Both the position numbers and the translations under genes were made by a program. From the NCBI GenBank assembly GCA_002281755.1, contig NCHB01000001.1:62001-126000 (forward strand): a stretch of 64,000 nt of DNA, given 5' to 3'. Every line of letters begins with the position of its first letter. The first letter of the stretch is position 1. Origin of the DNA: Sulfurovum sp. 16-42-52 (GTDB lineage: Bacteria > Campylobacterota > Campylobacteria > Campylobacterales > Sulfurovaceae). Positions 6,735 through 25,551 of this stretch are shown here, piece by piece. The notes beneath the pieces are model-generated. The model was not told the origin of the DNA. It did no database searches and worked only from the letters and a program-made list of their open reading frames with translations.

Positions 6735-7303
6735 GGATTAAAATCTTCTATGGACTTTAGGCTGTATTTTGTTTGGACTTCATTGAGTTCTTCTCCAACC
6801 AAAGCACGACATGCCTGTGAGGCATGATCAATCAGCCGTGAAAGGAGTGACATTTCAGATGCGCTAAAGTCATGTAAGACATAATCGGCGACTTGACTTC
6901 TATGCAGGGGTTTTCCCACACCTATCCTGACACGAACATACTCTGGTGAGATATGCGCATCGATGGATTTGAGTCCATTGTGTCCGCCATGTCCCCCGCC
7001 TCTTTTAAAACGCAGCGCTCCAAAAGGCAGATCGATATCATCATGAATCACAATACTCTCTTCCAACTCCACTTTAAAAAACTGTTTAACGGCTTGTACG
7101 GAGATACCTGAAAGATTCATATACGTTGTGGGTTTTAAAAAAAGGGTGTCGGCACTACGATAGAGTTTGCCTTGGAATGAAGTTTTGGAAATATCTCTGG
7201 CACCAGCGTCACCGACCAGTTTGTCGATGACTTTGAAGCCTATATTGTGACGGGTATTTTCGTATTGTGATCCCGGATTACCTAGACCGACGAAAAGTGT
7301 CAT
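6731..7303 (-). CDS. pth: Peptidyl-tRNA hydrolase
   Basis: Releases tRNA from peptidyl-tRNA dropped by ribosomes. It begins MTLFVGLGNPGSQYENTRHN, with the catalytic histidine at the end of that run. The later motifs KPTTYMNLSG, HDDIDLPFGALRFKRGGGHGGHNGLKS and RVRIGVGKP are also intact. The 190 residues are normal. It follows rplY by 6 bases and overlaps the LptG-like gene by 4, so the three form an operon. Confidence 0.96.
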   Translation of the reverse strand: MTLFVGLGNPGSQYENTRHNIGFKVIDKLVGDAGARDISKTSFQGKLYRSADTLFLKPTTYMNLSGISVQAVKQFFKVELEESIVIHDDIDLPFGALRFKRGGGHGGHNGLKSIDAHISPEYVRVRIGVGKPLHRSQVADYVLHDFSASEMSLLSRLIDHASQACRALVGEELNEVQTKYSLKSIEDFNP

Positions 7304-9094: not shown

Positions 9095-10090
9095 TTATTT
9101 TAAACTCTCAAGCATCTCTTGAAATGCTTTTTCAAAAGCTTCAAGCCCTTCTTTTAAGAGTTGTCGGTACACTTTGTTCATATCAAAACCGTTATCCGCC
9201 AATTTGGTAAAATACCCTTTGATATCACTCTCTTCTAAAGGGAATGCAGGCTGTGGAGCTTTTTTACCTATAAATGCTTTAATCGTCTCCAATGGCGCAG
9301 TGTTCACAGAATGAGGTGCCAAAAGTTCTCTCATATAATAGTCCGCCCTCAAGGCATCACCCTTGACACCCGTACTTGCAAAGAGTGTACGAATGCTTGG
9401 TGTACGGTTTGCTTCAATCAGATTATAGATTTTTGCTGCGTTATAGATACCGGTTTTAGAAACGGGAATTGCCTCATTTTCCAAATCGCCATCAAGCAGT
9501 CTGTCAAAACGGCTGACAAAAACAGAGATAACCGCTTCAGCTCTGAGTCCGCCGTCTTTTTCAAAACAATCCAAACCTTTTTTCATGGCTTTAAGACATT
9601 TCTGTGCCTGCTTTGGAGAAAAAATCAGTGTCGCATTGACTGAAATGCCCGTGCAAAGCAACTCTGTCATCGCTGCATACCCAGCTTCAGTAGCAGGTAC
9701 TTTGACCATCACATTGGGTTCACCTATAGCAGTAAAGAGTCTTTTGCCCTCTGCAATGGTGCCCTCGGTGTCATTGGCAAGAAAAGGGTCCACTTCTATG
9801 GAAATATAGCCGTCATTGCCCTCATCATACAAAGGTCTTAGTGCCTGTGCAGCGGTGCGTATATCTTCAATGGCGAGTGCTTCATATTTCTCTTTGGGGC
9901 TTTTGCCATCAAGCAAAGACAACTGCTCTTTATAAGCAGGAGAACTCGTAATCGCAGAGGCAAAAATAGACGGGTTGCTTGTGGCTCCGTTGATGATGCC
10001 TTTCTCAATGAGTTCTGAAAAATTATTTTTGAGAAAATCTCTTTCTACAAAATCCAACCATAACGAGAATGCTATGTCCCTATTTACCAT
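9095..10090 (-). CDS. tal: Transaldolase
   Basis: Pentose-phosphate enzyme moving a dihydroxyacetone unit from sedoheptulose-7-phosphate to glyceraldehyde-3-phosphate. The 331 residues form a TIM barrel. GATSNPSIF near 35-43 and VMVKVPATEAG with the Schiff-base Lys130 are clear, and SVFVSRFDRLLD follows. It ends 22 bases before pilT and begins 2 bases after aat, so it shares the minus-strand run. Confidence 0.94.
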   Translation of the reverse strand: MVNRDIAFSLWLDFVERDFLKNNFSELIEKGIINGATSNPSIFASAITSSPAYKEQLSLLDGKSPKEKYEALAIEDIRTAAQALRPLYDEGNDGYISIEVDPFLANDTEGTIAEGKRLFTAIGEPNVMVKVPATEAGYAAMTELLCTGISVNATLIFSPKQAQKCLKAMKKGLDCFEKDGGLRAEAVISVFVSRFDRLLDGDLENEAIPVSKTGIYNAAKIYNLIEANRTPSIRTLFASTGVKGDALRADYYMRELLAPHSVNTAPLETIKAFIGKKAPQPAFPLEESDIKGYFTKLADNGFDMNKVYRQLLKEGLEAFEKAFQEMLESLK

Positions 10091-18016: not shown

Positions 18017-18603
18017 GTTTCATTCTTTATATAGAGATAATTGCGTTGGTTTTTTTGAACTATATCATAGCTTAGCTGATGGGGCATCTGTTCTATTTCA
18101 TCCAACACCCTAGAGCCTTTGTAAAACAGATAACGTGTCTTTGCATCACAAAGTCTGGATGTCAATTCAAGAAGTAATGCAGTGTTGGTCACCGCGCGCG
18201 AACTGATGAGTTCAAAAGGTGCATGCTCGACCTGCTCGACCCTTTTTCCCTCCACGCTCACACTAGAAAGCCCCAACTCTATGGCAGCATACTTCAAAAA
18301 GGAGACACGCTTTTTAAGCGGTTCAGCCAAAACCACCTCTGTCTGCGGCAAAGCGATAGCCAATACAAGTCCAGGAAAGCCTGCACCCGTGCCCACATCC
18401 AAGAGTGTTTTTGGTTTGTCTATAAAGGTTAAAGGATACAAGGCATCGACGATGTTTGCATAGATGGCTTCTATGGTTTTTGCACCTGTAAGGTTATGGA
18501 TCTGATTCCATTCATGTAAAAGTGAAGCAAAGTTTTCCAACTGTACGATTTGTTCATTTGCCAAGATGATCTTCTCGGCATCCAAATGTTGTGACAGATT
18601 CAA
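18010..18603 (-). CDS. rsmG: 16S rRNA (guanine-527-N7)-methyltransferase
   Basis: SAM-dependent methyltransferase (GidB) acting on 16S rRNA G527. The 197 residues contain [12 protein letters not shown] and the SAM motif [17 protein letters not shown] (about 82-98), plus SSRAVTN. The start overlaps the stop of the PqqD-like gene by 4 bases (ATGA). As I recall, rsmG lies next to ribA in C. jejuni; here about 7 kb of accessory DNA separates them. Confidence 0.94.
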
Positions 18604-18878
18604 AGTGCTTCTACTTTTACCAGTCCGCTCTCAAGCAGCTTTTCCACGAACTCAGACAAATCGTTTTGCAACACCTCTGCTTCAACCTCATACTGCTCCA
18701 TCAACACCTCAAAAACTTCATGCAGGATTTCATGCTCTTGCATCGCCTGCCAAATGGCTGTGCCTACTTCATCAAGCCCGAAATAGTTTTCGCTTTCCAT
18801 ATCCAAAAGCACCATCTCTCCATCAACTTCCTGAGCAAATACACTCTGTGAAAAGGTAATTTTTTGACTCAAATCCAT
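18600..18878 (-). CDS. PqqD-like RiPP recognition protein, candidate lasso B1
   Basis: A 92-residue PqqD/RRE-fold protein: an N-terminal three-strand sheet ([29 protein letters not shown]) followed by three helices. This fold binds leader peptides of ribosomal peptides. The length and the [19 protein letters not shown] pattern match B1 proteins of lasso-peptide clusters. No other RRE is seen in the window, so it is the best candidate partner of the B2 protein at 23.2 kb. It lies downstream of a DsbC-like gene (2-base gap) and overlaps rsmG. The link to the lasso cluster is inferred. Confidence 0.85.
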
Positions 18879-18880
18879 GC

Positions 18881-19627
18881 TTATTCTCCACCTTCGAGTA
18901 ACTCTTCTTGCATCACAGGCATAAACTCTGCATTGAAGATAGAAGGCGTACCTCTTACACCCAGTTCCATCGTTGCCAGATTGGACTTTTCGATGTAGGC
19001 TTGTGTCTCAGACGAATAGACAAATGGTTTAGTGGCATCTTTGATAAGTATCTCATAGTGCGTTGAACCCTTCAGCATGATCTCTTCGAAACGTGCTTTT
19101 TTATCAGCATCATCGTTACCCTGCATAATCCACTCTATCATCGCCGGTGCTTTTTGATGAAAAGGAAGTGGAAAAAGTATCACATGCACTTTAAAATCAT
19201 CGAGTTTTCCGGCTACTGCTTTTTCAAAACGGTTACAGTATAGACATTCGGGATCCATGACGATGTAGAGTTCTTCGTCACCTTTGCCGTAAGAAAATGC
19301 AATCCCTTCAGAGATAATCTTCGCATCTTGAGGATACACCATCGCATTCCCCTCTTTATCATAAGCCGAACCGATGTAAAGCTCATCCGTCTTTTTATCG
19401 AGATATGCGGTAATGAACTGTGAACCCTGCGCAGACTGCGCTTCTAGTTTAAGTATATAACTCTGTGGTTTTTCAATCGCACCTTTAATGCTAAGAACCG
19501 GGTCTTGAAGCACCACATTTTTAGCCTTCAGTGCTTGAAGTTTTGCTTCGTCCACTATGGTATCTGCTGCACCCACTGTACAGACACACACCATCACCGC
19601 AAGTAGAGCACACAGTGCTTTGTTCAT
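18881..19627 (-). CDS. DsbC/DsbG-like thiol:disulfide interchange protein
   Basis: Periplasmic thioredoxin-fold protein. A signal peptide covers about residues 1-20 of the ATG at 19627, which is preceded by AAGGAA; the longer in-frame start at 19666 would put 13 polar residues before it and is rejected. DPECLYCNRFEKA holds the CLYC active site (about Cys128 and Cys131), and the thioredoxin cis-Pro loop GVRGTPSIF is present. The N-terminal part (about 25-110) resembles the DsbC dimerisation domain. It is 2 bases upstream of the PqqD-like gene. The predicted lasso core has no cysteine, so this protein probably serves other substrates. Confidence 0.85.
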   Translation of the reverse strand: MNKALCALLAVMVCVCTVGAADTIVDEAKLQALKAKNVVLQDPVLSIKGAIEKPQSYILKLEAQSAQGSQFITAYLDKKTDELYIGSAYDKEGNAMVYPQDAKIISEGIAFSYGKGDEELYIVMDPECLYCNRFEKAVAGKLDDFKVHVILFPLPFHQKAPAMIEWIMQGNDDADKKARFEEIMLKGSTHYEILIKDATKPFVYSSETQAYIEKSNLATMELGVRGTPSIFNAEFMPVMQEELLEGGE

Positions 19628-20288
19628 ATAGATGTTCCTTGGTGTTATTTTGTCAAAGTATAGCATTAAACATTTAACGCCAAACTGTTTAATCCTATCA
19701 TTACATCACATCATCTAACACTTTCAAAGAAAAACATGTTTACAAAGCTATCCAGAAAGATCCATAGAGTATTAGATTTAGACAGATACAGTTCGTTAAA
19801 TAAAAATAAGATTTCATTGACACTGTTAAAGAGTCACAAAGTAAATGACCTACCAAAACTTAAGCTCGCAATAGAGACGAAGCAGTTGAATTACTCCAAC
19901 AAGTTCTCTTTATAAAAACAGACGGCATTTTGGTCTGCAAACAAGTAGGAGTGCAAAGCATTTAAAAGGGTCATGGACTCTATGCGAGTGATGTGGTTAA
20001 AAGTTATATTTTGAGGTTGTTGATGGAGAATGAGAAGATGAAACATCACGGTAGATAATTACCTACAAAGGTCAGAAGGATCTAAATTCACATTAGGTAT
20101 GAGCATAGTCTTATGTTTCTTTAAACACTATTCGTTGCCCTATAGGAATTACTATCAGTCGCCACCTATATTCTGACCTTAACTAGAAAAGAGGATCAGC
20201 CCTCCTCTCTTAGATAGAATTCTTGTTATACTAGAAGCCTATAATTAAACCTAACGTTTTTTATTTTTGTCTGAAAACCATTATTTGA
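19628..20288. other. Gene-poor scar between the DsbC-like gene and the lasso cluster
   Basis: 660 bases without a convincing gene. On the plus strand, an open frame at 19736-19915 encodes 59 residues of unknown type. Further short open stretches follow in another frame and are broken by stops (about 19870-20055; fragments such as LLQQVLFIKTDGILVCKQVG and GLYASDVVKSYILRLLMENE). They look like remains of one broken gene that I cannot name. A 10-base inverted repeat (AAGGTCAGAA near 20079 and TTCTGACCTT at 20171-20180) spans about 100 bases. A terminator-like hairpin lies at 20184-20208. Confidence 0.55.
20184..20208 (-). terminator. Rho-independent terminator of the lasso operon
   Basis: On the minus strand the 6-base stem AGAGGA / TCCTCT with a 7-base loop is followed by TTTTCT. 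It lies about 80 bases after the precursor stop codon, where the end of the lasso operon would be expected. The stem is short and the U-tract is modest. Confidence 0.55.
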
Positions 20289-20414
20289 TTATAGTGGCGG
20301 GTTTGGCTTCTTAGCCCCCCCTTGACTTCCTTCCGCAGCGGTTCCTGACCCTCCAAGCGTAATTTTCTTTATTGGCATTTTTGTTATTTTAGGATTAGTC
20401 CAAGTTTTCTTCAT
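20289..20414 (-). CDS. Lasso-peptide precursor (A)
   Basis: A 41-codon gene, easily missed by gene callers. AAGGAA lies 7 bases before the ATG, and it starts 10 bases after the macrolactam synthetase stop. Leader residues 1-20 begin MKKTWTNPKI, giving WxxPxI, a variant of the YxxPxL motif read by lasso B1 proteins. Thr19 is at position -2, as needed by B2 peptidases. The core (21-41) begins GGSGTAAE: Gly1 and Glu8 can form an 8-residue macrolactam ring. A 13-residue tail ends KKPNPPL. There is no cysteine. The tail has no aromatic plug; Lys35/Lys36 or the Pro-rich end might hold the thread. The C-terminus is Leu, not the Ser phosphorylated in paeninodin-type peptides. Confidence 0.85.
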   Translation of the reverse strand: MKKTWTNPKITKMPIKKITLGGSGTAAEGSQGGAKKPNPPL

Positions 20415-20424
20415 ATTTATTTCC

Positions 20425-22317
20425 TTAAAAATTTTCTTTTATTATATCATAAGAATTCTGTACAAGACAAACTGCAACTATTTTCTCTACTTCTCTCATT
20501 TCTAATCTATCAATTTCAATTTTATTTAAATCTGCTTTTAACTTTTCATAATCTATATATGAATTTCTTTTATAATCAATTTTATTCATGCTACTTCGAA
20601 TAATTTTTAACACATTTTTATAATCTTTTTCGAGTGATTGATTTATTTTAGTTTCACTTGGCTTTGCAAACCACACAATATCTGAAGGCAATAAGTCTGA
20701 TACTGTCATTTTAATTAAAAATCGTTCTTTACACTCCACTAGAAAAAATAATTCTTCTGGAATTCCAATGGCAAATTCTATAATTCGTTTATCTAAAAGG
20801 GGATACCTATATTCAATTCTGTTTGACTGACCCATCAATGCCCAAGATTCTATTCTATGTTGAATATGCCCAAAATTATACTGGGCCAACTGATTTTTTC
20901 TAACACCCCGAACACTAGGTATTTCTGCATCTTTATGCGATTTCATGAAACTTTCAAATTCTTTAGTTAAATACCTATATCTATGCGCGTTCCGATAATT
21001 ACTTTTGTAATTTCTAAGTTTGCGAAATACCTTTAGAGCATTAGGAGATAAAAAATTTATTAGTGTCCGCTTCAATAATTTTTTCCAGGAATAAGACAAA
21101 TATTTTTTCTCTTGTAATAAATAATAAAATGCTGTAAAAATCTTCCCCTGACTAATAAGACCTGAAATATAAGAATAACCATTGTAGGATATCAATTCAT
21201 CTCCTCCCCAACCAGATAATATAACCCTTGCATTCATTCTCTTCATTTGACACTGAATATAATTCTCTCCCCAGTAGTACATAGTTCCTTGAGTAAAAAT
21301 ATTATGTGTTCTTATACATTGTTCTATGTATGCCGGATCTATTTTGAATTCTTCGTGAATAATATTTTCTTCTCCTGCTGCTATTCTCCTGCTAAAATTC
21401 CAAGCTTCGTATTCGTATTTATTTTTATCTTCCGGTATATCTATCCAGTTAAATGTATAAAGAGGTTTTTCTATCTTGTGAAGTTTCTGTGATGCAAGCA
21501 CCGCAATAGGTGAAGAATCGATACCACCACTCATATGAGATCCGACAGTATAATCAGTACGAAGACGTACTTCAATAGCATCATCATACAATTTCCTTAA
21601 TTGTTCAACATACTCTCCAAAAGTTTTATAATGAATTATTGGAGATTTTTCTAGAGACCAATAAGTAGTTTCATTGATTTTGTCTTTAGTAACAATCATA
21701 CTCATTGCTGGAGGAAGTTTTTTGATACTCTCAAAAAAAGTTGCCTGTTTTGAATGAAGATAATTGGATTTGATGAAAAATGCTATTGTATTTTTATCTA
21801 AACCTTTTGGGATTTCAGAACAGCCCAAAAATGATAGAATATCATTTGAAAAAATAAATCTATCATCTGTACAAAAAAAATACAATGATTTAATGCCTAC
21901 ATGATCTCTAGCACAAAACAGTTGCTCTTTTTCACTATCCCAAATCGCAAAAGCAAAATCGCCCAAGAGATGTTTCGGACACTCTTCACCCCATTTCTCA
22001 TAAGCTGCCAGTATAAATTCGCTATCACCGATCTCCCCCATAGGTAGATCAGGTAAAGTAAGTTCTTTGGCTAATTCATCACGATTGTCTATCCTTGCAT
22101 CCATTGTCAGGACATACGTATCTTTTTGCATCGGTAGATGCTCATATTTAGACTCTGGCGTATTCCAAAGCATAGCATGTCGCAATGCTATGGATCCATC
22201 TATCCACAAATTACTCTCATCCGGCTCCCAACTAGACATAGTTTCGAGCATTTCCCCCGCAATATTTTTGTCAATAGGATTTCCATTTCGATTAAAAATA
22301 CCAAAAAATCCGCTCAT
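20425..22317 (-). CDS. Lasso macrolactam synthetase (C; asparagine-synthetase-like)
   Basis: 630 residues with an N-terminal class-II amidotransferase-like domain (1-220) and a C-terminal ATP-pyrophosphatase domain carrying SGGIDSSP (263-270). It begins MSGFFG: the nucleophilic Cys2 of true asparagine synthetases is replaced by Ser, so glutamine hydrolysis should be lost. This is expected for lasso cyclases such as McjC, which adenylate the ring Asp or Glu and let Gly1 attack. Its start overlaps the kinase stop by one base and its stop lies 10 bases before the precursor gene. The gene is visibly AT-richer than its neighbours, which suggests transfer. Plain asparagine synthetase is less likely given the neighbours. 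Confidence 0.88.
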   Translation of the reverse strand: MSGFFGIFNRNGNPIDKNIAGEMLETMSSWEPDESNLWIDGSIALRHAMLWNTPESKYEHLPMQKDTYVLTMDARIDNRDELAKELTLPDLPMGEIGDSEFILAAYEKWGEECPKHLLGDFAFAIWDSEKEQLFCARDHVGIKSLYFFCTDDRFIFSNDILSFLGCSEIPKGLDKNTIAFFIKSNYLHSKQATFFESIKKLPPAMSMIVTKDKINETTYWSLEKSPIIHYKTFGEYVEQLRKLYDDAIEVRLRTDYTVGSHMSGGIDSSPIAVLASQKLHKIEKPLYTFNWIDIPEDKNKYEYEAWNFSRRIAAGEENIIHEEFKIDPAYIEQCIRTHNIFTQGTMYYWGENYIQCQMKRMNARVILSGWGGDELISYNGYSYISGLISQGKIFTAFYYLLQEKKYLSYSWKKLLKRTLINFLSPNALKVFRKLRNYKSNYRNAHRYRYLTKEFESFMKSHKDAEIPSVRGVRKNQLAQYNFGHIQHRIESWALMGQSNRIEYRYPLLDKRIIEFAIGIPEELFFLVECKERFLIKMTVSDLLPSDIVWFAKPSETKINQSLEKDYKNVLKIIRSSMNKIDYKRNSYIDYEKLKADLNKIEIDRLEMREVEKIVAVCLVQNSYDIIKENF

Positions 22318-23216
22318 TACTTCATCTTTCTAAAGCTACTATGATGTTCGAGAATAGTATTATATACTTCATTTAACCTGTTGAAATCCCAAGGAACTGT
22401 AACTTTATATACAGATAGTCTCTGCGCAATTTCCCCTAAATAGTCGAGCTGTTTTGACTCGGGAAAGAACAGATTCATCTCTTTGGCACTACGTAATGCC
22501 ATGAATTTATCCACCCCTGTAAGCATGCTAACCTTCACATCATTATCACCTTCAACTTTTTGCAAAACATAAATACTATGCATTGCTTTTGGCGTTTTTG
22601 CAAAATTTTCTACAAAAAAACCCAAATCTTCAATATCTCGATATGGGCGATGATATGGATAGGAAGATACTGTATAGAAATCACCATCTTTTTGAAACGT
22701 TGCAACCTTATCATCAGAAATCATCGTATGTCCTTGCTTCATAAAGTAGTCTGTCATCGTTGATTTGCCACCAAAAGATTCGGCAATGAAAAGTACAGGT
22801 TCTTCATTTATCTCCACTGCACCTGCATGTAAAAAATCATAAATCCCTTCGATGATAAAAAAAATAGGTAACACAACATGTAGGGCCCAATATTTCAGTA
22901 GCTCTTCCGTAAAGTTTTCATGTTTGATGTATTCTAGTTCCATCATTCCGCTAGACCAGAAAAAAGTAATGACATCTTTGACTTCAAATACCCAAATCTG
23001 CCCCGTACCCCTATCCATAAACTCACGATCTGAATAGAGTCCAAGATCCCGTCCTTGACTTTCAGGAAAAATCATTTCACATTGTAGTTTCTTTTTTAAC
23101 TCAGAAGCAAACAAACTACTTTCTCTTACTTTTACTTGACCAACAAATGAGTCTACTGATTCTTTGTCATCCTCCAATCGTGGTATGAACTTTATATAGT
23201 GATTATACGCGATCAT
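22317..23216 (-). CDS. HPr-kinase-like protein of the lasso cluster (K)
   Basis: About 299 residues from the ATG at 23216, which overlaps the B2 stop as ATGA (an in-frame ATG at 23228 is also possible). The C-terminal kinase core shows HAGAVEI, the P-loop AESFGGKST and ISDDK, the usual HprK/P order. The N-terminal half is unrelated to HPr-kinase regulatory domains I know. In paeninodin-type clusters such kinases phosphorylate the C-terminal serine of the precursor. Here the precursor ends in Leu, so Ser23, Thr25 or Ser30 would have to be the target, or the role differs. The first P-loop position is Ala instead of Gly. Confidence 0.85.
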   Translation of the reverse strand: MIAYNHYIKFIPRLEDDKESVDSFVGQVKVRESSLFASELKKKLQCEMIFPESQGRDLGLYSDREFMDRGTGQIWVFEVKDVITFFWSSGMMELEYIKHENFTEELLKYWALHVVLPIFFIIEGIYDFLHAGAVEINEEPVLFIAESFGGKSTMTDYFMKQGHTMISDDKVATFQKDGDFYTVSSYPYHRPYRDIEDLGFFVENFAKTPKAMHSIYVLQKVEGDNDVKVSMLTGVDKFMALRSAKEMNLFFPESKQLDYLGEIAQRLSVYKVTVPWDFNRLNEVYNTILEHHSSFRKMK

Positions 23217-23674
23217 TCTTTTCCCCATCCAAATACTGAAAGTACAGCAAAATCTTCATGCCCACTGCCACCAGTGATGATGGTCTCTCCACACTGTGAC
23301 CAGGCATGTGCTTTCATCTTTTCTTTACTCTCTTCATCTTTAGCAGCACCCAGGTAAAATACACCCGAAATGCCGCGTTTTTGAAGCATCTTTTGTGCCG
23401 TAAGCGACTGTACCAGGCAGGCACTTTCCCAAGGTGTGTAGGTAGCTGCTCTCATGATGGATTTCCCTATTATTATAGCTCTTTCTTGTTCGGTTTGTGT
23501 GAGAGTTGCTAAGTCAGGCTGTTGGGTATGATGCTCCAATGAACGCGTCAAACGCTTGAAGGAAACCGTCAGGATGGCTGCACGCATGACACCCAGCATC
23601 ATATACGCTTCCAAAAAAAGTTTTTTCTCTTCTGAAGATATAGCAGTAAATTTTCTGATTTTATTGAACATCAA
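23213..23674 (-). CDS. Lasso leader peptidase (B2; transglutaminase-like)
   Basis: 153 residues, the size of stand-alone B2 proteins, which cleave the leader with help from B1. The cysteine-protease set is Cys86 in TPWESACLVQSL, His123 in KAHAWSQCG and Asp141 in GHEDFAVLSVFGW, in the order known for McjB-type enzymes. No RRE domain is fused, so a separate B1 is required. The start lies within the end of the ABC transporter gene (14-base overlap) and the stop overlaps the kinase start. Confidence 0.9.
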   Translation of the reverse strand: MMFNKIRKFTAISSEEKKLFLEAYMMLGVMRAAILTVSFKRLTRSLEHHTQQPDLATLTQTEQERAIIIGKSIMRAATYTPWESACLVQSLTAQKMLQKRGISGVFYLGAAKDEESKEKMKAHAWSQCGETIITGGSGHEDFAVLSVFGWGKE

Positions 23675-25427
23675 AATCCTCCTGTATCAGCCCTTGCTTT
23701 TGGAGTTCTTCATACGTTCCTTCTGCTTTTATCCTGCCTTCTTCGATGAGATAGATGTAGTCAGCTTGTTTGATGGTTGTGGTTCTGTGCGCGATGATGA
23801 CGGTGGTGCGTCCCTCCAAAAAGGGTGCCAGTGTCTCATAGAGGTGAAACTCTGTGGCATTGTCCAGTGCAGAGGTAGCTTCATCAAAGATGACTATCTT
23901 TGGGTCTGAGAGGATGAGTCTTGCGATGGCGAGTCTTTGACGCTGTCCACCAGAGAGACGGATGCCGTTTTTTCCGATGCGTGACTCTAACCCTTCTTGC
24001 AGATTTCGTACAAACGCCTCAAGCTGTGCGGCTCTGAGTGCCTCATAAATTGCTGCATCACTTTTTTCTTTCGAGAGTGTTAGATTCATGCGAATGGTGT
24101 CATTAAAAAAGAGGCTCTGTTGCAGCATCAGTGCTACATTTTCACGGACGATAGGAAGCCCTATCTGCTCTATGGGAACACCGCCGTAAAGTATCTCACC
24201 TGTATGAACAGGATAAAACCCTACCAATATCTGTGCGATAGTTGTCTTTCCGCTTCCGCTGGCTCCTATGAGTGCGATCTTTTGTCCTTTACGGGCTTGC
24301 AGGCTGATGTCATGCAAGACTTGACTACCTTTACTATAGTTAAAACTGATATGTTTCAGCTCGATGGAAGTACTTTTTATATCTTCAAAAGGATTTGTTT
24401 TATGCGGATAGTGTGGTTCCATAGAGAGCGCAAGCAAGGTGTTGATGCGTTCTAAAGCCGGCTTTGTACCTTGATAAGCAATAACCAGCCCCATAAGCTG
24501 CTGGATGGGCTGCAACAATGTCGAGAGATAAAACAAAAAGGCTATCATCATCCCAATGGTCAGATCGGAGTACGCTACCGCTGCGATGCCCATAGCACGA
24601 AAGATATCCACAACGACATTGGTCAAAAGCGTGGAAGAACTGTGTGCAACGGCAGCTTTATGCCCATACTCAAGAGATGCTGTTTCGATGGCTTTGGCAA
24701 GATTTTGCAAGATGCCAAAAAAGCTGTGTTCCTGATTGCTCGCACGCACCTGCACAAAAAGATCCAAGGTTTCAGCTAGCAGTTCATGGTACAACTCATA
24801 CGCTTCATGCTGACGGCGTAACAATTCACCCGTTTTACGCCCAAGCACTTTTGAAAAAGCTAAAAAAAACGGATTTAACACAAAAACAAGCAGAGCCAAC
24901 ACCCAGTTCATCCAGAGCATCACTGCTGCAATACCTACTAGCATCAAAGAAGCAGACAAAAGCGTTGTGACCACCTGTCCTGCAAAACCACTGACACTCT
25001 CCACATCCTGCACTGTTTTTGATGCGATGCCGCCAGATTTGAGTGTTTCGTACTCACTCAGTTCAACACGTTCAAGATGATGCAAAATACGATGGCGAAG
25101 CAGGTAGCTTATCTTTTCTGTAATTTTGGTGGCATAAAAGGTTTTTGTATTATTGAAATAAAATGCCAAAAGGCGCAACACTAAAACCATTGCCAAAATA
25201 ACCGTGATATAAACCCACACTTGGGAACTTCCAAGAACACCTGAGATCATCTCCGTCATCTTTCCGGGATGTCCCAACAACACCTCATCGATCAAAAGCG
25301 GGATGAGCATCGGTATAGGCAATAAAAGAAGCGTTGCCAAAACCCCATACAAAGAACTGCGCCAAAAATCATGCTTTTGTGCTTTAATCTGAGTGTAGAG
25401 TGTGCTAAAGGTATAATTTTTTGTCAT
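23661..25427 (-). CDS. ABC exporter with fused ATPase (lasso D)
   Basis: 588 residues: six membrane segments (about 20-310) then an ATPase domain with Walker A GASGSGKTT (388-396), signature LSGGQRQRL near 492 and FDEATSALD. It lacks an N-terminal C39 peptidase, so it exports an already matured substrate, as McjD does, giving immunity at the same time. It is the first gene of the operon. Its ATG is preceded by ATCAGGCAACA; the GGCAAC there is complementary to the 3' strand of the upstream riboswitch. A lipid exporter such as MsbA is the alternative, but the context argues against it. Confidence 0.88.
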   Translation of the reverse strand: MTKNYTFSTLYTQIKAQKHDFWRSSLYGVLATLLLLPIPMLIPLLIDEVLLGHPGKMTEMISGVLGSSQVWVYITVILAMVLVLRLLAFYFNNTKTFYATKITEKISYLLRHRILHHLERVELSEYETLKSGGIASKTVQDVESVSGFAGQVVTTLLSASLMLVGIAAVMLWMNWVLALLVFVLNPFFLAFSKVLGRKTGELLRRQHEAYELYHELLAETLDLFVQVRASNQEHSFFGILQNLAKAIETASLEYGHKAAVAHSSSTLLTNVVVDIFRAMGIAAVAYSDLTIGMMIAFLFYLSTLLQPIQQLMGLVIAYQGTKPALERINTLLALSMEPHYPHKTNPFEDIKSTSIELKHISFNYSKGSQVLHDISLQARKGQKIALIGASGSGKTTIAQILVGFYPVHTGEILYGGVPIEQIGLPIVRENVALMLQQSLFFNDTIRMNLTLSKEKSDAAIYEALRAAQLEAFVRNLQEGLESRIGKNGIRLSGGQRQRLAIARLILSDPKIVIFDEATSALDNATEFHLYETLAPFLEGRTTVIIAHRTTTIKQADYIYLIEEGRIKAEGTYEELQKQGLIQEDFDVQ

Positions 25428-25472
25428 TGTTGCCTGATATTGACTTTAGTCTTAGTGAATATTTTATTCTTT

Positions 25473-25543
25473 GGCAACCTGGCGATCTTCTTTTCAAAGA
25501 CCCATGGCTTTCTGACCCTGTCTCACGGCAGGTGTAGCATTTC
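25473..25543 (-). ncRNA. GEMM / c-di-GMP-I-like riboswitch before the lasso operon
   Basis: On the minus strand, TGCTACACC leads into a CCTG/CAGG stem capped by a GTGA tetraloop closed by C-G, then GGGTCAGAAAGCC, ATGGGTCT, a small TCTT/AAGA hairpin, and GATCGCCAGGTTGCC. This follows the GEMM pattern (GGCAAACC, stem with GNRA loop, GGGACGCAAAGCC, second stem, GCC-GGTTGCC) block by block, with several conserved bases changed. No long P1 helix is visible. The closing GTTGCC (25473-25478) is the exact complement of GGCAAC over the exporter's ribosome-binding site (25429-25434). The ligand is not determined by this; c-di-GMP is the default. Confidence 0.72.
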
Positions 25544-25551
25544 TTATGATT

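Follow-up and report, generated by a model that had tools for sequence, protein, structure and literature searches.

Lasso peptides are matured by a PqqD-type protein that binds the leader of the precursor, a B2 peptidase that cleaves near a threonine at position -2 and a cyclase that forms the isopeptide bond. The 64,000-nucleotide stretch of Sulfurovum sp. 16-42-52 DNA analyzed here (hereafter the window) encodes candidates for all three, and just past its cyclase gene lies a frame of only 41 residues. The question raised by this locus is whether that frame is the substrate gene of the cluster and, if so, what its product would be and how its expression would be controlled. We are highly confident that it is the substrate gene of a lasso operon under a predicted riboswitch, and its predicted product is a 21-residue class II lasso closed between Gly1 and Glu8 and most likely bearing a phosphorylated Ser3 in its ring.

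A candidate precursor frame at the end of a five-gene operon

An earlier note on this DNA had proposed a lasso precursor here without naming the strand. The frame exists exactly where that note placed it, on the minus strand (Table 1), and encodes MKKTWTNPKITKMPIKKITLGGSGTAAEGSQGGAKKPNPPL. As claimed, its ATG (20414) follows the cyclase stop codon (20427-20425) by 10 nt; the AAGGAA that precedes this ATG overlaps the stop. The translation bears out W5, P8, I10, T19, G21 and E28: the leader carries WTNPKI at positions 5-10, a motif of the YxxPxL type, and has Thr at -2; the core opens with a small residue and carries an acid at its position 8. A strict lasso-precursor pattern matched this frame alone among the 583 window ORFs of 30-75 codons, and 20 shuffled windows yielded 2 matches in 11,702 ORFs, or about 0.1 per whole 64-kb window. 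Because the pattern was composed after the precursor sequence had been seen, comparison with relatives provides stronger evidence than this count. A better precursor near the cluster, which the earlier note had named as grounds for rejection, was sought between 18 and 27 kb of the window, and no credible candidate was found there.

The minus-strand gene order is ABC exporter, B2 protease, HPr-kinase-like kinase, cyclase and precursor. The ends of the first four genes overlap, indicating that they form one operon, and all five frames are intact. The best NCBIfam matches of the cyclase (NF033535, lasso cyclase, 407 bits) and of the PqqD-type protein (lasso_PqqD_Bac, 63.9 bits) fall under their curated cut-offs (525 and 80, respectively), which identifies both enzymes as divergent members of their families. 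The Dsb-like gene begins about 620 bp past the precursor and is followed by the PqqD gene, which thus stands about 1.4 kb from the precursor, beyond a gene remnant.

Table 1. Features of the lasso locus (window coordinates)
Feature	Position	Strand	Basis or remarks
Lasso precursor gene	20289..20414	-	Leader 1-20 (W5..P8.I10, T19 = -2); core 21-41, GGSGTAAEGSQGGAKKPNPPL; predicted ring Gly1-Glu8
Lasso cyclase (asparagine-synthetase-like macrolactam synthetase), 630 aa	20425..22317	-	SGGIDS motif; Asn_synthase and GATase_7 (Pfam)
HPr-kinase-like lasso kinase	22317..23228	-	Pfam; Walker A GGKST and SDDKV; profile against solved HPr kinases
B2 leader peptidase, transglutaminase-like	23213..23674	-	NF033537, 92.5 bits (cut-off 33)
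ABC exporter, no peptidase domain seen	23661..25427	-	Pfam/NCBIfam
Predicted expression platform	25428..25488	-	3' aptamer strand GUUGCC can pair with GGCAAC directly before the ABC ATG
c-di-GMP-I-type riboswitch aptamer	25469..25547	-	RF01051, 56 bits, over cut-off 35 (own genome)
PqqD-type RRE protein, presumed B1	18600..18878	-	PF05402, 66 bits
DsbC/DsbG-like thioredoxin-fold protein, conserved downstream flank	18881..19666	-	Pfam/NCBIfam, relatives
Gene remnant with internal deletion	19736..20039	+	Intact in L053 (3618-4289, 223 aa, amidase-like by eye)

The stretch of about 250 bp immediately 3' of the precursor (20039-20288, minus strand) is closed by a 10-bp inverted repeat, AAGGTCAGAA...TTCTGACCTT, and has no counterpart among the relatives searched. 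A structured RNA was considered for this stretch and set aside, given no Rfam match and a fold z-score of -1.1 against shuffles, which is not significant; nor did any candidate in it pass an intrinsic terminator scan.

Codon comparison indicates selection on the precursor as a protein

The closest orthologous cluster, L050 (cyclase identity 51%), has a precursor that is likewise 41 residues long, MKKVWKKPIFKKIGLLEKITLGGSGSKTEKTGQTNRNRRPA. The two precursors share MKKxWxxP, KITLGGSG and Glu8, and 11 of their 16 identical residues are specified by different codons. Within ITLGGSG all seven codons differ, every change being synonymous, and both alternative frames are broken by stops. The L050 precursor lies on the strand opposite its cyclase and converges on it, so that conservation of untranslated sequence trailing the cyclase gene does not account for the similarity; precursors on the strand opposite the cyclase also occur at L055 and L068. 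On this codon evidence, the reading frame is under selection as a protein.

The alignment proposed in the earlier note was carried out on precursors at loci that keep the lasso enzymes. As that note had anticipated, these precursors vary apart from a few recurring features: Trp or Tyr at position 5, P8, T19, a small first core residue, and Asp/Glu as the eighth (or ninth) residue of the core. Across 20 precursors, taken as small ORFs adjoining related cyclases in the same phylum, Pro8 and Thr19 (-2) are invariant and the aromatic residue at position 5 is either Trp or Tyr. Of the 16 precursors listed, the window's among them, 15 have Asp or Glu as core residue 8 or 9, and L060b is the exception.

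These comparisons bear directly on whether the frame might be a chance ORF at the end of the operon, the true precursor lying elsewhere or having been lost. Short frames are indeed common in the window, as the count of 30-75-codon ORFs attests, and the PqqD gene is distant from the remaining cluster. Chance is nonetheless a very improbable explanation: the purely synonymous divergence of ITLGGSG from L050 we take as already refuting it, and the uniqueness of the motif in the window, the invariance of Pro and Thr(-2) in 20 loci and the want of any other credible candidate nearby tell against it as well. Judged by sequence comparison, the window frame is a genuine lasso precursor, another member of a large known class.

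Two descriptions of the core given in the earlier note held in part. Its tail does lack an aromatic plug, as stated, but this is not the rarity the note had supposed: the tails of L050, L053, L065 and L070 are also free of aromatic residues, and within this precursor group the trait is ordinary. Where the note has a cationic tail, the window core is only weakly cationic, with two Lys; the L050 core is clearly cationic.

The kinase and its predicted phosphosite

The operon includes an HPr-kinase-like enzyme, the feature by which kinase-tailored lasso clusters are recognized. Its match to Hpr_kinase_C (Pfam) is weak (22.5 bits, under the cut-off of 33.3); a profile of 11 kinase relatives matches the solved HPr kinases 2qmh and 1jb1, and the Walker A and SDDKV motifs are invariant in all 11 aligned relatives. 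Characterized lasso kinases use two kinds of site: PadeK, ThcoK and PsmK act on Ser at the C terminus (PMC9266682), and BsfK phosphorylates ring Ser3, aided by its PqqD partner (PMC10368454). The window precursor ends in PNPPL, with no C-terminal Ser, and has Ser at core position 3 within GGSG, as does L050. Since the C-terminal Ser is absent, BsfK targets ring Ser3 and Ser3 is kept in L050, core Ser3 is the most likely site at which the window kinase would phosphorylate the future ring; GGSG occurs in only one close relative, so that this conservation amounts to two sequences.

Alternatively, the precursor may be real and the kinase act at Ser10 or Thr5, or not at all, leaving the lasso differently phosphorylated or unphosphorylated. 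We hold this to be a serious possibility at somewhat less than even weight. The weak profile match leaves room for it, as does the fact that the characterized kinases PadeK, ThcoK and PsmK use a residue missing from the window core. It fits less well with the invariant Walker A and DD motifs of the 11 sequences, with the choice of ring Ser3 by BsfK, and with the retention of Ser3 in the sole close homologue despite a difference in codon (TCA/AGT). Phosphorylation at Ser3 thus remains our preferred reading. A trend, not a test, links kinase subgroup to the C-terminal residue of the neighboring precursor: precursors beside the window's subgroup end in Leu, Ala, Thr, Gly or Ile (window, L050, L053, L067 and L070), whereas Ser is the last residue of many precursors that adjoin the other subgroup (L064, L065, L055, L057 and L060; exceptions L062, L056, L068 and L052).

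Among known systems, the Bsf cluster of Bradymonas sediminis (BsfA/K/B1/B2, PMC10368454) resembles the window in its split B1/B2, its HPr-like kinase and its YxxPxL-type leader, as well as in Gly1, an acidic residue at position 8 and Ser3 in the ring. It differs in having Ile(-2) and Asp8 in place of the window's Thr(-2) and Glu8; the Ile/Val at -2 of the Bsf type is replaced by Thr19, and the window leader motif carries Trp. Further differences are that no nucleotidyltransferase gene was seen in the window cluster and that a riboswitch lies upstream of it. Paeninodin and pseudomycoidin (PadeK, PsmK; PMC9266682) likewise derive from lasso clusters with a tailoring HPr-like kinase, but PadeK and PsmK target a C-terminal Ser that the window core, ending in Leu, does not have. 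Lariocidin and triculamin (PMC11451635) share with the window an 8-residue ring, a similar core size and positive charges. Lariocidin, however, has a Ser1-Asp8 ring, is densely cationic and is encoded with a GNAT acetyltransferase and a clostripain-family peptidase; no GNAT or clostripain-like domain was detected among the seven window cluster proteins scanned (Pfam/NCBIfam). A lariocidin-like ribosome inhibitor, which the Lys/Pro tail had brought to mind, was dropped on account of the missing accessory genes and the modest charge.

A c-di-GMP-I-type aptamer precedes the operon

About 40 nt upstream of the ABC start lies a predicted riboswitch aptamer that exceeds the RF01051 cut-off (Table 1) and scores 55.9 bits against the subfamily RF03167, under its cut-off of 59. 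It differs from the c-di-GMP-I riboswitches of these two families in its varied core (GCUACACC, GGGUC), which deviates from consensus, and in its lasso-operon position. The same core is found in L051, L062, L064 and L065, and the GNRA-type loop and receptor region are conserved among relatives. The host, to judge by gene content a campylobacterotal chemolithotroph, has a 2-Mb draft genome with four c-di-GMP-I aptamers, one of which belongs to the lasso operon; downstream of the remaining three lie genes for two small putative membrane proteins and a gene set of PAS/chemotaxis type (names assigned by eye). The genome also has seven GGDEF matches over cut-off. Seven of the 11 loci from the genus have the riboswitch ahead of their ABC gene (window, L051, L054, L060, L062, L064 and L065). 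A search of the loci did not find it at L050, L053, L066 and L070, nor at the loci of other genera, L055-L057.

Bases following GG at the aptamer 3' end can pair with those directly before the start codon. This putative switch helix is TTGCC/GGCAA in the window, GCCTA/TAGGC in L064 and ACCTA/TAGGT in L062, a compensatory change. Compared with shuffles, it gives a combined 8e-5 over six not-near-identical loci, a value to be read with the loci being related and the segment having been chosen by the analyst. The evidence for a helix between the aptamer 3' strand and the pre-start region is therefore only suggestive; should the helix exist, bound ligand would release the start region and the element would act as an ON switch.

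The departures from consensus, the score under the RF03167 cut-off and the absence of the element at some loci could also mean that the aptamer binds another ligand (e.g. cGAMP) or is degenerate, in which case c-di-GMP would not control the operon. We consider this rather unlikely, given that the RF01051 cut-off is exceeded, that the identical core recurs in four relatives and that the pre-start helix shows compensatory change between L064 and L062.

Two further riboswitch arrangements were observed. At L060, a second aptamer (9437-9538, minus strand; c-di-GMP-I-GGC, 67.7 bits) is followed about 20 nt 3' by a precursor-like ORF, MKQIKEFEKKSYRQPQLKIIGTIHNNTK..., with neither Asp nor Glu at core positions 7-9; the switch helix before this ORF comprises ten pairs. 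At L062 (5694-5921), L064 (5478-5705) and L065 (5888-6116), all on the plus strand, tandem c-di-GMP-I riboswitches precede a gene for a secreted protease, subtilisin-like by eye, that sits between PqqD and the precursor.

Proposed maturation and regulation

We propose that a cyclic-dinucleotide riboswitch of the c-di-GMP-I type gates the ABC-B2-kinase-cyclase-precursor operon, probably because ligand binding makes the ribosome-binding region accessible. The PqqD-type B1 would then bind the WxxPxI leader, and the HPr-kinase-like enzyme would phosphorylate the precursor before cleavage, most likely, by analogy with BsfK, at core Ser3 of the future ring. B2, guided by Thr(-2), would cleave between Leu20 and Gly21, the cyclase would link the amine of Gly1 with the side chain of Glu8, enclosing the tail and giving the 21-residue class II lasso, and the ABC protein would export it. 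The calculated [M+H]+ is 1862.9355 for this lasso and 1942.9018 for its monophosphorylated form. Such a product would likely serve to compete with related bacteria when cells grow on surfaces in a c-di-GMP-linked manner.

A search of literature largely outside the subscription journals returned no report of a lasso cluster in Campylobacterota and no link between lasso peptides and c-di-GMP riboswitches. If true, riboswitch control would be, within the literature searched, the first direct RNA link from a cyclic-dinucleotide second messenger to lasso production, and the riboswitch setting suggests an inducer for silent clusters.

Exchange of cyclase and precursor at a fixed chromosomal site

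Many genomes of the genus carry the lasso cluster at one and the same location, flanked by ribA/hemB and rsmG. The DNA of L062 and L065 is 94% identical up to positions 7239 and 7434, respectively, and 91% identical again from 9325 and 11564; in between lies dissimilar DNA, 2.1 kb in one and 4.1 kb in the other, that holds the cyclase and precursor. The encoded proteins follow suit, with identities of 95% for ABC, 94% for rsmG and 30% for the cyclase. These data demonstrate that cyclase and precursor have been exchanged between conserved flanks in L062/L065. Between L065 and L060, by comparison, the kinase is 81% identical and ABC only 69%.

A similar exchange is likely in the window, where unequal constraint could contribute. 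The window's DNA similarity to L050 and L053 ends at 21839/21840, inside the cyclase gene, and that to L053 resumes at 20039. Across the group, cyclase identity is 61-75% over the N-terminal 155 residues and drops in a sharp step around residue 155-160 to 28-43% for what follows; the contrast between the two parts is milder in control lasso cyclases. The notion that every cyclase moved as one block is weakened by this step, whether it reflects recombination or unequal constraint.

The GC content of the window kinase (36%) and cyclase (32%) is below that of the flanking genes (42-45%). Together with the gene remnant, this could be read as a cluster in decay, its core swapped in beside the remnant and perhaps no longer expressed or exported. 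Such decay is improbable, however, as the five operon frames are intact, the aptamer is kept and the low GC of kinase and cyclase recurs in several relatives.

A broader picture would be that a fixed slot in this campylobacterotal genus holds a lasso chassis (exporter, protease, PqqD) under a cyclic-dinucleotide riboswitch, into which cyclase-precursor cassettes are swapped, the output being a ring-phosphorylated lasso whose production is tied directly, through RNA, to second-messenger level; we regard this picture as evenly balanced. Novelty would reside in the riboswitch and cassette setting, less in the precursor peptide. Cassette exchange at one locus would provide natural chimeras, which may help to tell the domain of the cyclase that recognizes the core peptide from the generic parts.

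Several variants of the locus were also noted. Between the kinase and the main cyclase, L051, L064 and L065 have an additional cyclase paralogue, shorter than the main one and paired with a precursor of its own, whose predicted ring closes on Asp9 and whose last residue is Ser. At the same chromosomal site, L094 (5471-10652, G036) encodes a divergent short cyclase of 486 aa, a precursor with core GGGEVNTDSEGLEGGTAS and two kinases. HPr-like kinases of a related kind, close to Dsb-PqqD, occur at L086 (5340-6215), L071 (5889-7004), L061 (5937-7047) and L050 (15296-16489), accompanied in the last three by a small Tat-like protein (RRxFLKK...SAP...LGQLAKP) and present at L086 with no lasso cyclase; the same site may thus hold a further peptide-modifying system of the kinase/PqqD type.
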